From the NCBI GenBank assembly GCA_029263795.1, contig JAJUFI010000005.1, positions 1 through 47,410 on the forward strand: a stretch of 47,410 nucleotides of DNA, read 5' to 3'. Shown here piece by piece: positions 17,549 to 30,168 of the stretch. The DNA comes from Alcaligenaceae bacterium. GTDB taxonomy: Bacteria > Pseudomonadota > Gammaproteobacteria > Burkholderiales > Burkholderiaceae_B. A program made the translations under genes and the position numbers. Position 1 is the first letter of the stretch, and each line of letters starts with the position of its first letter. The notes beneath the pieces were generated by a model. The model did not search any database and was not told the origin of the DNA. It worked only from the letters and a program-made list of their open reading frames with translations.

Positions 17549-18502
17549 ATGACTCTGACCGAACTCAAATATATAGTTGCCGTTGCCCGCGAGCGCCATT
17601 TCGGCCGGGCGGCGGAAGCCTGCTTCGTCAGTCAGCCGACGCTATCGGTGGCCATTCGCAAGCTTGAGGAAGAGTTGGGAGTGGTATTGTTCGAGCGCGG
17701 CGGCGCCGAAGTCAGTGTCACCGATGTCGGCCTGAGAGTCATTGCACAGGCCCAGAAGGTGCTCGAGGAAGCCGCCATGGTCAAGGAAATTGCACGGCAG
17801 GGTGAAGACCCGCTGGCAGGCCCTTTACGCGTGGGCATCATTTACACCATCGCCCCCTATCTCCTTCCCCACCTGGTGCCCACACAGGTTAAACAGACAC
17901 CTCAGATGCCGCTGGTCCTTCAGGAAAATTACACCAATCGCCTGCTGGAACTGCTGCGACAGGGTGAACTCGACTGCGCCATCGTTGCGCTGCCCATTCC
18001 CGATTCTGGTCTTGTGGTGGAGCCTCTTTACGATGAACCCTTTCTGGTGGCCGTTCCCGCAAACCATCCTTGGGCGCAGCGCGAGCGTATCAACCCGGAT
18101 GAACTCAAGCAGGAAACCATGCTGCTGTTAGGCAGCGGCCATTGCTTCCGGGACCAGGTGCTGGAAGTGTGCCCTGAGTTCGCCCGCTATTCGGCGTCCA
18201 GTGAAGGAATTCAGCGAAGCTTCGAAGGTTCGTCACTGGAAACCATCCGGCACATGGTGGCGGCCGGGCTCGGCGTCACCGTCATGCCGGCCAGTTCCCT
18301 GAGTGCTCCCGGCGTGGCCGAAGGCCCCGAGGGGCGGCTGCTGCGCTACATTCCCTTTGAAAAACCAGTACCCGACCGGCGCGTGGTGCTGATCTGGCGC
18401 AAGAGTTTCCCACGCCCAGCCGCGATGAAGGCGCTTGCCACCAGCATTCGCGACTGCGGGCTGCCCGGGGTTCAATATCTACCGGCTCAAGATTTTGCCT
18501 GA
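17549..18502 (+). CDS. oxyR: LysR family hydrogen peroxide sensor OxyR
   Basis: MTLTELKYIVAVARERHFGRAAEACFVSQPTLSVAIRKLEEELG plus redox cysteine motif GHCFRDQVLEVC; directly downstream of recG. Confidence 0.92.
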   Translation: MTLTELKYIVAVARERHFGRAAEACFVSQPTLSVAIRKLEEELGVVLFERGGAEVSVTDVGLRVIAQAQKVLEEAAMVKEIARQGEDPLAGPLRVGIIYTIAPYLLPHLVPTQVKQTPQMPLVLQENYTNRLLELLRQGELDCAIVALPIPDSGLVVEPLYDEPFLVAVPANHPWAQRERINPDELKQETMLLLGSGHCFRDQVLEVCPEFARYSASSEGIQRSFEGSSLETIRHMVAAGLGVTVMPASSLSAPGVAEGPEGRLLRYIPFEKPVPDRRVVLIWRKSFPRPAAMKALATSIRDCGLPGVQYLPAQDFA

Positions 18503-18505
18503 GGC

Positions 18506-18527
18506 CCTAGGGTTTACCCCTAAGTGA
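18506..18527 (+). promoter_or_regulatory. Motif shared with the second livJ upstream region (copy 1)
   Basis: CCTAGGGTTTACCCCTAAGTGA, with GGGT-TT-ACCC core dyad; close match at 25165-25185. Confidence 0.6.
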
Positions 18528-18592
18528 AGTGCGGCCCGCCTTTCAGCGTGTTGCCGCGGTGTATGCTAAACGGCGAACTTTCTGGAGGATTT

Positions 18593-19714
18593 ATGAAAGC
18601 AAAATTCAAACCCTTGGTGGCAGCGCTGGGTCTTGCGGCCGGCATGACGCTGTCCGCCGTGGCATATGCCGACACAATCAAAATCGCCATTGCCGGCCCC
18701 TTCACAGGTTCAGTAACCCAGTACGGCGCCATGGTCAAGGAAGGCGTGGATACCGCCGTGGAAATGATCAATGCATCCGGCGGGGTTCTGGGCAAGCAGC
18801 TGGAAGTTGTGGTCATGGACGACGGTTGTGAACCCAAGCAGGGTCCGGTGGTTGCCAACCGCGTGGTGAATGACGGCATCAAGTACGTTGTGGGCCATGT
18901 GTGTTCTGGTGCCACCATCGCCGCAACCAATATTTATGACAGCGAAGGCGTTCTCATGATTTCGCCCTCGGCCACCGCACCTGCGGTGACTGACGGCAAG
19001 AATTATGAAATGATCTTCCGCACCATCGGTCGCGATGACCAGCAAGGCCCGGCGGCTGCCAAGTTCATCATCGAAACCATCAAGCCACAGGCCGTCGCCG
19101 TTCTGCACGACAAGCAGTCTTACGGCCAGGGCATTGCCGGCGCGGTGCGCGACGAGCTGGAAAAAGCCGGCGTGAAGGTCGTCATGTTTGAAGGCATCAA
19201 CGCCGGTGATAGCGATTATTCCGCCGTCATCACCAAGATCCGCAGCAGCGGCGCGGACTTCGTCTATTACGGTGGCTACCACCCTGAAATGGGTCTGCTT
19301 CTGCGCCAGGGTGCGGAACAGGGCCTCAAGGTGAAGTTCATGGGCCCGGAAGGGGTTGGCAACCCTGACATCAACGCCATTGCCGGCAATGCTGTCGAAG
19401 GTATGCTTCTGACCCTCCCTGCAGACTTCACTCAGGATCCGGCCAACGCCGACATCGTCAAGGCTTTTGAAGAGAAGAAGCGCAACGCTGGCGGCGCCTT
19501 CCAGCTGACGGCATACTCGGCCACTGCCGCGATTGCCGAAGGCATCAAGGGGGCGGGGGAAGACGACCCGGTGAAGGTGGCCAAGTGGCTGCGCGCAAAT
19601 TCGGTGAAGACCCCGATTGGCGAGCTTTCCTGGGACGACCAGGGTGACCTCAAGCAGTTCCGCTTCGACGTCTTCACCTGGAAGGCCGACGGCAGCAAGG
19701 AAGTCTACAAATAA
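18593..19714 (+). CDS. livJ: Branched-chain amino acid ABC transporter substrate-binding protein (orphan paralog)
   Basis: MKAKFKPLVAALGLAAGMTLSAVAYADTIKIAIAGPFTGSVTQYGAMVKEG...MDDGCEPKQGPVVANRVV; SD GGAGG upstream of 18593. Confidence 0.93.
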   Translation: MKAKFKPLVAALGLAAGMTLSAVAYADTIKIAIAGPFTGSVTQYGAMVKEGVDTAVEMINASGGVLGKQLEVVVMDDGCEPKQGPVVANRVVNDGIKYVVGHVCSGATIAATNIYDSEGVLMISPSATAPAVTDGKNYEMIFRTIGRDDQQGPAAAKFIIETIKPQAVAVLHDKQSYGQGIAGAVRDELEKAGVKVVMFEGINAGDSDYSAVITKIRSSGADFVYYGGYHPEMGLLLRQGAEQGLKVKFMGPEGVGNPDINAIAGNAVEGMLLTLPADFTQDPANADIVKAFEEKKRNAGGAFQLTAYSATAAIAEGIKGAGEDDPVKVAKWLRANSVKTPIGELSWDDQGDLKQFRFDVFTWKADGSKEVYK

Positions 19715-25164: not shown

Positions 25165-25185
25165 CCTAGGGCATACCCGTAGTGA
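25165..25185 (+). promoter_or_regulatory. Motif shared with the first livJ upstream region (copy 2)
   Basis: CCTAGGGCATACCCGTAGTGA, aligns with copy 1 at 18506-18527. Confidence 0.6.
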
Positions 25186-25302
25186 CAGCGCGCAGGGGCT
25201 CCCCGGAGAATATGCGGGCCACATCGTCGAATTTTCGCAGTGGTAACCATTCTAGTCAGAACATGACGAGTCGCTCAGGCGATCATTTGGAGATCCGCAG
25301 GC

Positions 25303-26421
25303 ATGAAGTCATTTATTCGAGTGAAGCCCCTCGCCATGGCCCTGGGCGCCTTGGCATTTGCAGGTAGCGTTTACGCCGATACCATCAAGATCGGCATTCC
25401 CCAGCCCATGACAGGTCCCGCCACCCAATACGGTGACCAGATTCAGGCCGGTGCCCTGACCGCCATAGATGCCTTCAATGCTGCAGGTGGCGTCAACGGC
25501 AAGAAGCTCGAACCGCTGCTGATTGACGATGGTTGCGAACCCAAGCAGGCTGTTCCCGCAGCCAACCGGGTTGTGAACTCCGGTGCCAAGTTCGCTGTGG
25601 CACACGCCTGCTCCGGCACTACGGTGCCGGCTGTGAACGTTTACGAGAACGAAGGCATCGTGGCGATCACGCCGGGAGCCACCTCACCGCTGGTCACCGA
25701 TACCATCAAGCCGCATTTCTTCTTCCGTACCATCGGTCGTGACGACCAGCAGGGCCCCTTTGCGGCTGAATACATTGCCAAGGAGCTCAAGCCCAAGAAT
25801 GTCGCCATCCTGCACGACAAGCAGACCTATGGCAGCGGTCTGGCTGGTCAGGTGCGTGATGCGCTTGCCAAGCACGGCGTTGAAGTCGCCATGTACGAAG
25901 GCATCAACGTTGGTGACAGCGATTATTCGGCGGTCATCACAAAGCTGAAGTCACTTGGCCCGGGCCTGATCTACTTTGGTGGTTACCATGCCGAACTGGG
26001 TCTGCTGCTGCGCCAGGCGCGCGAGCAAGGTCTGAAGACGCAGTTCATGGGCCCCGAAGGCGTGGCCAACGCTGACCTGGTCGCAATTGCCGGCCCCGCT
26101 TCAGAAGGGCTGCTGGTCACGCTGCCTGCAGACTTCACCAAACTTGAGGGCAACCAGCAGATCCTGGAGAACTTCAAGACCTACAAGCGCAGCCCAGACG
26201 GCGCCTTCGCTATGCCGGCCTACGCTGCCGTGCAGATCCTGGTGGAAAGCATCAAGGCTGTGGGCGAAGACCCTGCCAAGGTGGCCGACCATATGCACAA
26301 GGCAACTTTCAACACGGCCATCGGTAAGGTTGAGTACGATGAAAAAGGCGACCTGAAGGAATTCGAGTTCGCCGTTTACAAAGTCGACGGCAAGGGCAAC
26401 ATCGTCCAGCTGGAGAAGTAA
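25303..26421 (+). CDS. livJ: Branched-chain amino acid ABC transporter substrate-binding protein
   Basis: MKSFIRVKPLAMALGALAFAGSVYADTIKIGIPQPMTGPATQYGDQIQAGALTAIDAFNAAGGVNGKKLEPLLIDDGCEPKQAVPAANRVV; heads the liv operon. Confidence 0.94.
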   Translation: MKSFIRVKPLAMALGALAFAGSVYADTIKIGIPQPMTGPATQYGDQIQAGALTAIDAFNAAGGVNGKKLEPLLIDDGCEPKQAVPAANRVVNSGAKFAVAHACSGTTVPAVNVYENEGIVAITPGATSPLVTDTIKPHFFFRTIGRDDQQGPFAAEYIAKELKPKNVAILHDKQTYGSGLAGQVRDALAKHGVEVAMYEGINVGDSDYSAVITKLKSLGPGLIYFGGYHAELGLLLRQAREQGLKTQFMGPEGVANADLVAIAGPASEGLLVTLPADFTKLEGNQQILENFKTYKRSPDGAFAMPAYAAVQILVESIKAVGEDPAKVADHMHKATFNTAIGKVEYDEKGDLKEFEFAVYKVDGKGNIVQLEK

Positions 26422-26550: not shown

Positions 26551-27474
26551 ATGTCCGAACTTATACCCCAACTATTGCAGCAGCTCTTCAACGGGCTGTC
26601 GCTCGGCGCCATTTATGCGCTGATAGCCATCGGCTACACAATGGTCTATGGCATCATCGGGATGATCAACTTCGCTCACGGCGAAATCTACATGATCGGT
26701 GCCTACGTCGGGCTGGTCACTCTGTCGGCAATTGGCGTGGGCAGCGGCCTTCCGGTAGCCCTGATCATTCTGCTCATGCTGATCGTGGCCGTGTTGGTCA
26801 CGGCAGTCTACGGCTTTGCCGTTGAAAAAGTTGCATACGCACCATTGCGCGGAGGGCCCCGACTGGTGCCTTTGATATCCGCCATCGGTATGTCAATCTT
26901 TCTGCAGAACTGGGTTGCCATTGGTCAAGGTGCCCGCGACCAGGCTGTTCCGGCGCTCGTCACAGGGGCTGCACAATTTGACATCGGTGGCTATGTCATT
27001 ACTGCTCCGTATTCCCGCATCATGATCATTCTTGTGACGGTCGTGCTGATGATCATGCTGCATTTGTACATCAAGCATTCCCGTCTGGGCCGTGCATCCC
27101 GTGCATGCTCACAAGATCTGCGCATGGCCAATCTGCTGGGCATAGATACGAACAAGATCATTTCCTTCACCTTCGTCATTGGCGCCATGCTGGCAGCCGT
27201 GGGCGGGGTGCTGATCGCGCTGGCCATCGGCAAGCTCAACCCCTTCATCGGCTTTCTTGCAGGCATCAAGGCTTTTACCGCCGCGGTTCTGGGAGGCATC
27301 GGCAGCATTCCGGGTGCCATGCTTGGTGGTGTGCTGCTGGGCTTGGCCGAAACCTTCGCCGCCGCGTACATCTCGTCCCAGTACAAGGACATCGTCGCGT
27401 TCAGCCTGCTGGTGCTGATCCTGCTGTTCCGTCCTACAGGGCTGCTTGGTAAACCGGAAGTGGAAAAAGTGTAA
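26551..27474 (+). CDS. livH: Branched-chain amino acid ABC transporter permease LivH
   Basis: [52 protein letters not shown] start at 26467 lies in the hairpin and is rejected. Confidence 0.95.
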
Positions 27475-28703
27475 TGGCGAGTCATATCAAGAATGCATTC
27501 ATAGCAGCCATCATGGCCGGGGTCATCATCGCCCCGGTATATGGGCTGCAGATCGTGCGCAGCGGAATGCAGACGCACATCGAGCCTCAGTGGAATCTGG
27601 TACTGCTGGGCATGGCCATCGTCTTTGTGTTCCAGGCGTTCATACGGCCTGTGTTTGCAAAGGCCATCGCGGGTCGCACCAGTGGCATCCGCCTGCCAGT
27701 TTTGAACGATACGGCCCGCAGGGCATCCATCACACTGCTGATTGCTGTTGCGCTGGTCTGGCCCTTCTTCACCGGTCGCGCAGAAGTCGATATTGCAACC
27801 CTGGTTCTCATTTACGTGATGCTCGGGCTCGGCCTGAACATTGTGGTCGGCTTTGCAGGCCTGCTGGACCTCGGCTTCGTCGGCTTCTATGCGGTAGGTG
27901 CCTACACCTATGCATTGCTTTATCACTGGGCAGGCTGGGGTTTCTGGGAGGCCCTGCCGCTGGCAGGGGTTATGGCAGGCATTTTCGGTTACCTGCTGGG
28001 CTTTCCGGTCTTGCGTCTCCGTGGTGACTATCTGGCTATCGTGACGCTGGGGTTCGGCGAAATCATCCGGCTGCTGCTTATTAACCTCTATGAATTCACC
28101 GGTGGCCCGGACGGAATCTCGGGCATTCCGAAACCAACGGTGTTCGGTATGCCCATGGTGCGTCGGGCACCCGAAGGGCAGACGACCTTCCATGACTTCA
28201 TGGGGTGGCAGTTCGACAATATGGACGTCGTCATTTACTTGTATCTGATGGCGCTGGCACTGGCGCTCATCACGCTTTTTGTTTCCAACCGCGTGATTCG
28301 CATGCCGGTTGGCCGTGCCTGGGAAGCCTTGCGGGAAGACGAAATCGCCTGCCGATCCCTGGGTCTGAATCCCACCAACATCAAGCTTTCGGCCTTCACC
28401 ATGGGTGCCGTTTTCGCTGGCTTTGGCGGGGCATTCTTTGCTGCAAGGCAGGGCCTGGTGAATCCGGAATCCTTCACCTTCCTGGAGTCGGCGCTGATTC
28501 TTGCCATCGTGGTGCTGGGCGGCATGGGCTCCCAGGTGGGCGTCATCCTCGCGGCGATCATCCTTACAGTTCTGCCGGAAGTGGCGCGTGAATTCGCCGA
28601 GTACCGGATGATGATATTCGGTCTGGTCATGGTTCTGATGATGATGTGGCGTCCCCAAGGCCTGCTGCCCATGACGCGTCCGCACGTGGAGTTGAAGAAA
28701 TGA
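27474..28703 (+). CDS. livM: Branched-chain amino acid ABC transporter permease LivM
   Basis: [39 protein letters not shown]...[47 protein letters not shown]. Confidence 0.95.
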
Positions 28704-29467
28704 GCAAGGCCCTGCTGCAAGTTTCAAATCTGAGCATGCGTTTCGGGGGCCTGTTGGCGGTTGATGGCGTGGCCTTCGACGTCCGGTCCGATGAAGTATT
28801 TGCCATCATCGGCCCCAACGGGGCGGGCAAGACCACCGTCTTCAACTGCGTAGGCGGTTTTTACAAACCCACCACCGGTGTCATTGTCATGGACGGCAAG
28901 CCTATTCATGGCATGCCCAGCCACAAAGTGGCCCGCGAAGGCTTGGTGCGCACCTTTCAGAACGTACGCCTCTTCAAGAATCTCACCGTACTGGAGAACC
29001 TGCTGGTGGCCCAGCACCAGCACATCAACACCAATTTGTTTTCCGGGCTGTTTAAGACTCCGGCCTATCGAAAGTCTGAAAGTCAGGCCTTGGACAATGC
29101 CGCGAAATGGCTGGACTTCATGGGCATCAAGGAATATGCCAACCGCGAAGCGGGCAACCTCGCATACGGCCACCAGCGCCGCCTGGAGATCGCACGCTGC
29201 ATGATCACCAAGCCACGCTTGCTCATGCTGGACGAGCCGGCTGCGGGCCTGAACCCTCAGGAAAAACGTGACCTGCAGCTGTTGATTGACCAGTTGCGCA
29301 GAGAGTTCGGAGTTGCCGTCCTGCTCATCGAGCATGACATGAGCCTGGTGATGGGTGTGTCCGACCGGATCATGGTCATGGAACATGGCAAGCCCATCGC
29401 CACCGGCGTTCCCGAAGAGGTCCGGACGGACCCTCGCGTCATCAAGGCATACCTGGGGGAAGAGTAG
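28700..29467 (+). CDS. livG: Branched-chain amino acid ABC transporter ATP-binding protein LivG
   Basis: [57 protein letters not shown] overlap with livM. Confidence 0.95.
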
Positions 29468-30168
29468 TGCTCAAGCTGCAAAACATAAACACGTTCTACG
29501 GGGCCATCCAGGCTTTGAGCGACGTCTCCGTCGAAGTCAACAAGGGCGAGATCGTCACCCTCATCGGGGCCAATGGTGCTGGCAAGACTACACTGCTCAT
29601 GACCGTTTGCGGTTCGCCGCGCGCTCGCAGCGGTTCCGTCATCTTCGAGGGTCAGGACATCACTCAGGAGCCGACCCACCTCATCATGCAGCGTGGCATC
29701 GCCATTTCGCCGGAAGGGCGACGCGTATTTCCGGACCTCACGGTCACGGAAAACCTGCAGATGGGCGGTTTTTTCCTAACCAAGGCCGAGATTCAGGAAA
29801 GCCTCGAACGGGTCTACGATTTATTCCCGCGTCTGCGGGAGCGCGCGTCGCAGCGCGCCGGGACGATGTCCGGTGGTGAGCAGCAGATGCTGGCTATCGG
29901 CCGGGCATTGATGACGCGGCCGACACTGCTGCTGCTGGACGAGCCCACTCTGGGGCTGGCACCACTCATCATTGCGCAGATCTTCGAGATCATCCAGACC
30001 ATCCGCGAGCAGGGGGTTACCGTCTTCCTGGTCGAGCAGAACGCCAACAAGGCGCTGCAGGTGGCAGACCGTGGTTATGTGCTGGAAACCGGGAAGGTGG
30101 TGCTGGCCGATACCGGCCCCAACCTGCTCGCCAATGACGAGGTCCGCAAGGCCTACCTTGGCGCCTGA
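29467..30168 (+). CDS. livF: Branched-chain amino acid ABC transporter ATP-binding protein LivF
   Basis: MLKLQNINTFYGAIQALSDVSVEVNKGEIVTLIGANGAGKTTLLMTVCG...MSGGEQQMLAIGRALMTRPTLLLLDEPTLGLAPLI; GTG start. Confidence 0.95.
   Translation: MLKLQNINTFYGAIQALSDVSVEVNKGEIVTLIGANGAGKTTLLMTVCGSPRARSGSVIFEGQDITQEPTHLIMQRGIAISPEGRRVFPDLTVTENLQMGGFFLTKAEIQESLERVYDLFPRLRERASQRAGTMSGGEQQMLAIGRALMTRPTLLLLDEPTLGLAPLIIAQIFEIIQTIREQGVTVFLVEQNANKALQVADRGYVLETGKVVLADTGPNLLANDEVRKAYLGA

Follow-up and report, generated by a model that had tools for sequence, protein, structure and literature searches.

A putative family-restricted operator upstream of two livJ genes in an Alcaligenaceae bacterium

NarL sites consist of TACYYMT heptamers, which are usually arranged as TACYYMT-N2-AKRRGTA; the boxes of FNR and CRP read TTGAT-N4-ATCAA and TGTGA-N6-TCACA, respectively, and the Lrp/AsnC feast-famine regulators have the consensus YAG-N9-CTR. 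Acetate utilisation in Pseudomonas is under the control of CrbR, a LuxR-type response regulator with the ACTU motif (e.g. TACTACCATCGTCGAAT), an inverted repeat required for activation (PMC5715377). The palindromic motif analysed here, which we named motif B, shares traits with several of these systems. At livJ genes it resembles ACTU in being an inverted repeat directly 5' of a -35 hexamer and in its association with nutrient-use genes, but the sequence is a different one, and ACTU is read by a LuxR-type response regulator. With FNR boxes motif B has in common a 5-4-5 palindrome, and with FNR/CRP systems more generally the layout of putative activator sites upstream of, and putative repressor sites over, the core promoter, as well as the occurrence of a site at a CRP-like gene itself; its half-site, however, is TAGGG and not TTGAT or TGTGA. 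Similar targets (liv, gdhA and a glycine-cleavage gene), phased multiple sites and TAG...CTA ends are reminiscent of Lrp/AsnC, although the spacer of motif B is 8 rather than 9 bases long and the motif is G+C-rich. The analogy to Lrp is suggestive only, and the Lrp/AsnC genes inspected carry no motif-B site, hence no sign of autoregulation.

The window (the whole analysed stretch of 47,410 nucleotides) contains two copies of the motif, which, like all features described below for the window, lie on the forward strand. Copy 1, CCTAGGGTTTACCCCTAAGTGA (18506-18527), starts 3 bp past the stop codon (18500-18502) of an OxyR-like LysR regulator gene (17549-18502; best NCBIfam match OxyR, at 281 bits and under the cut-off of 329) and is separated by 65 bp from the downstream ATG (18593) of an orphan livJ (18593-19714). 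Copy 2, CCTAGGGCATACCCGTAGTGA (25165-25185), precedes by 117 bp the ATG (25303) of the livJ heading the liv operon (25303-26421), which continues with livH, livM, livG and livF (26551-30168; NCBIfam matches). The orphan livJ codes for a branched-chain amino acid binding protein of 373 aa and the operon livJ for one of 372 aa, both matching the NCBIfam PRK15404 subfamily above its cut-off. The gene calls (an oxyR-like LysR regulator, two livJ-type binding proteins, proC and livH/M/G/F) hold, and both copies are found, as exact matches, where the original prediction had placed them. When the window was scanned with CCTAGGGNNTACCC at up to two mismatches, the two copies were the sole matches, both exact, against a chance expectation of 1.8 matches at this threshold. 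The exact core CTAGGGNNTACCC occurs at 3 sites in the 2.73-Mb genome (reversed control, 0), namely copy 1, copy 2 and a site beside rlmL (C22:1743), where it is present as a tandem pair directly 5' of a small ORF of about 60 codons, read by eye, that adjoins rlmL. The motif had also been proposed to include a GTGA tail. While the core is common to both copies, the tails are out of register by one base (CTAA-GTGA in copy 1, GTA-GTGA in copy 2), so that copy 1 has one base more than the consensus as first written allows.

The core CTAGGGNNTACCC belongs to a wider palindrome, YTAGGGTWWACCCTAR, which is motif B. One of its exact forms, TAGGGTTTACCCTA, has 70 matches against 1 for the reversed control in 121 genomes of the family (places counted by hand), and motif B yields 37 against 1 in seven genomes and 13 against 2 in the genome under study; two patterns, being palindromic, were counted on a single strand, and the counts are not independent, as the compared sequences are related by descent. 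The genomic distribution is accordingly not random but enriched over reversed controls. Outside the family, about 38 sites stand against 29 controls in 145 order-level genomes (hand count), and motif B is therefore essentially limited to Alcaligenaceae. Most exact matches extend over a -10 (..CCCTATAAT) and are frequently preceded, at a distance of 23 or 24 bases, by another site whose end falls on the -35. Across 33 distinct pairs the spacings fall into clusters of 17-19, 23-24 and 34-35 bases. Downstream of these exact matches lie genes for proteins of 58-99 residues, many of which have an LSDSLER-like stretch close to the N-terminus and, often, a EARARDARFSGSQW-like C-terminus; those tested matched no family in Pfam or NCBIfam. 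Loci of this small-protein family with paired motif-B sites over the -35 and -10 are L168, L204, L205 and L209-L234. Other neighbours of the motif are TctC receptors beside a TctE-like sensor kinase, SBP_5 and SBP_6, a third liv-type binding protein, gdhA, chemoreceptors and the glycine-cleavage T protein, and hfq adjoins a site in one same-genus genome checked. Genome G020 has a AGGGGTTATCCGAAGTGACA element on the minus strand (L109, around position 1500). Searches of the open-access literature with motif strings and keywords returned nothing relevant, subscription papers falling mostly outside this scope; motif B is apparently an undescribed operator in a known kind of system, and an earlier description is possible.

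At the liv operon, copy 2 overlaps a conserved element, AGGGCATACCCGTAGTGACA (25168-25187), and its GTGA tail falls within the -35 hexamer GTGACA (25182-25187), which overlaps the end of the copy and is followed, after a spacer of 18, by the -10 hexamer GAGAAT (25206-25211; promoter scan). The palindrome centre lies 32.5 bases ahead of the -10, near -44 from the predicted transcription start. We compared 80 relatives of the operon livJ, nearly all the named ones being Alcaligenaceae. Among the five closest same-genus genomes that retain the upstream region, CCTAGGGCATACCCGTAGTGACA is invariant while its flanks diverge; more distant relatives carry TAAGGGCTTATCCGTAGTGACA, AGGGATTAACCGTAGTGACA or GGGGATTACACGCAGTGACA, and then, 17 or 18 bases on, a -10 (e.g. 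CAGAAT or GAGAAT). By a strict rule the element is present in the window and in 76 of the 80 relatives; it keeps the motif-B register throughout, and GGG and AGTGAC are invariant or nearly so; the overlapping -35 is likewise kept in 76/80. Outside the genus of the window the element is asymmetric, with TCCG, ACCG or CACG as its right arm and moderate matrix scores. Judged from these alignments, copy 2 is an asymmetric relative of motif B with one strong arm, abutting the -35. In L033-L042 the leader of the operon livJ has complementary arms (e.g. GGCTTGCCG...CGGCAAGCC) between promoter and start, which seem to covary between species and are not obvious in the genus of the window; they may form a leader RNA hairpin.

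Copy 1 encompasses a 16-bp palindrome core, CTAGGGTTTACCCCTA (18507-18522). Its orthologous sites form a GGGTTTWCCCC palindrome within the genus and mostly read CTAGNGWAAACCCTGA, or a near variant, in other genera. The genes 5' of these sites vary among genomes, and the site thus travels with livJ. The putative -10 of the orphan livJ promoter, TATGCT (18562-18567), lies 47.5 bp past the centre of copy 1, and GGTGTATGCT is kept 5' of the orphan livJ orthologs, its distance to the site being fixed. The ortholog centre is 41.5-42.5 or 47.5-48.5 bp from a conserved -10 (e.g. TATGCT) in 29 of 37 sequences, which puts the centres near -54 or -60; no sigma-70 -35/-10 pair at the orphan livJ promoter passed a simple scanner. 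The GTGA tail is not conserved in the orthologs and is, by this comparison, incidental in copy 1, which as a full palindrome classifies as a full motif-B member. The site is found 5' of livJ orthologs in relatives; in Achromobacter and Bordetella, most genomes are without a recognisable motif-B site at a second livJ.

Membership of both copies in motif B was assessed with a matrix derived from 15 upstream members of the small-protein site pairs and from no livJ site. These 15 are partners of exact motif matches and were chosen by eye, which makes the matrix independent of livJ and not of the motif. Within the window it ranks copy 1 first (21.9) and copy 2 second (11.25). Nowhere in 1.27 Mb of DNA from relatives is the score of copy 1 equalled, and that of copy 2 is reached at 17 positions; livJ upstream sites account for many of the top scorers. 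Read in the motif-B register, nearly all variants of the copy 2 element rank among the best-scoring 0.05% of positions. Both copies match the palindrome YTAGGGTWWACCCTAR above background, copy 2 more weakly, and both occupy a conserved position relative to the promoter. The proposal of a common operator made in the original prediction is thus supported, at the level of sequence, by positional conservation and by a matrix from small-protein promoters that places both livJ sites on top.

Our preferred reading, to which we assign a probability of roughly 55%, is that both copies are putative sites of one family-restricted regulator recognising YTAGGGTWWACCCTAR. At the livJ promoters the site precedes the polymerase contacts (copy 2 abutting the -35 with its centre at about -44, copy 1 at about -60, both placements resting on predicted transcription starts), so that the regulator would most likely activate branched-chain amino acid uptake there. 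Repression would be most likely at the small-protein promoters, whose -35 and -10 both lie under paired sites. The sites, with their conservation, spacing, enrichment and neighbouring genes, are observed; a single protein binding all of them, the sign of its regulation and a role in the nutrient response are inferred. A point against a single regulator is that the promoter positions of copies 1 and 2 differ by about 15 bp, a distance that does not correspond to full turns of the helix and would be unusual for one activator.

Alternatively, two different regulators could be involved, copy 1 being a true motif-B site and copy 2 the site of an activator specific to the liv operon, resembling motif B by chance in this genus. 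We consider this rather unlikely. The copy 2 element is indeed asymmetric across the family, with few or no other copies per genome, and the Achromobacter/Bordetella form, GGGGATTACACGCAG, has lost its right arm in genera where the second livJ mostly has no recognisable site; against this, all but a few of its variants score in the top 0.05% in the motif-B register, and in this genus only one motif-B match in 47 kb scores higher than copy 2. It is hardly credible that copy 1 is instead part of the oxyR transcription terminator and resembles copy 2 by chance. Such a role would suit a G+C-rich inverted repeat 3 bp past the oxyR stop, but copy 1 has no T-run and no terminator-like prediction, and the site stays with livJ under different upstream genes at a fixed distance to the -10, by which the terminator reading is largely refuted.

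The identity of the reader raises further alternatives. The original prediction had considered plausible a two-component regulator of amino or organic acid use, of the NarL/LuxR type and acting on TACYYMT-like heptamers in both copies. TACCCCT and TACCCGT do resemble the NarL heptamer, and a site just 5' of the -35 suits such activators, as in the case of CrbR (PMC5715377). In family alignments and matrix sites, however, the T of TACCC is unconserved, being only W in the family motif, and the arms (AGGG...CCCT) stand in the reverse of the NarL order. By eye, the ACTU sequences listed for CrbR, such as TACTACCATCGTCGAAT, do not match motif B either (PMC5715377). A NarL/LuxR-type reader is thus very unlikely: the original prediction had seen something real and of the right general nature, and the regulator class that it named is not supported. 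Improbable as well, if less so, is that motif B is read by P0001, a CRP/FNR-family protein with the recognition helix SRQRANQALR. The TAGGG-N4-CCCTA layout matches the 5-4-5 layout of the FNR box, nearly all of 30 P0001 orthologs have a CTAGGGTWWATCC-type site at the start codon of their own gene, and the genome under study has a motif-B site between the P0001 gene and gdhA. Yet the genomes G013, G058 and G068 are without a P0001 ortholog, their one strong CRP/FNR match carrying an FNR-type helix, and keep motif-B sites before small proteins, and the P0001 promoter has a separate TGTCR-N6-YGACA dyad that would better suit autoregulation. Since motif-bearing genomes do without it, P0001 was rejected as the sole reader; it is a target of motif B or, at the most, shares the reading with other proteins, and is thus at best a partial candidate. 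In the genomes compared, no member of the CRP/FNR family is strictly tied to the occurrence of motif B. The local GntR, LysR and sensor-kinase genes that adjoin some motif-B sites were rejected as a common reader because different families are found at different loci. The P0001 gene (G000:C137; L239 1554-2228; L280-L309) is divergent from an acyl-CoA-ligase-like gene, and its upstream region, which combines the conserved TGTCR-N6-YGACA dyad with a motif-B-like site at the start codon and has no clear ribosome-binding site, suggests a leaderless and autoregulated transcript.

Extending the preferred reading of one regulator at both livJ genes, motif B could tentatively mark an undescribed, Alcaligenaceae-wide nutrient regulon, although we hold this at somewhat less than even odds; its one regulator would activate amino- and organic-acid uptake and chemotaxis, repress the small proteins and touch hfq and the CRP-like gene. 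The operator provides direct bait for its reader and a rule for predicting targets, and the predicted targets include small proteins that, in the tested cases, are without a Pfam or NCBIfam family. If one regulator reads all of the sites, it would be a candidate global nutrient regulator of a family to which Achromobacter, Bordetella and Alcaligenes belong.
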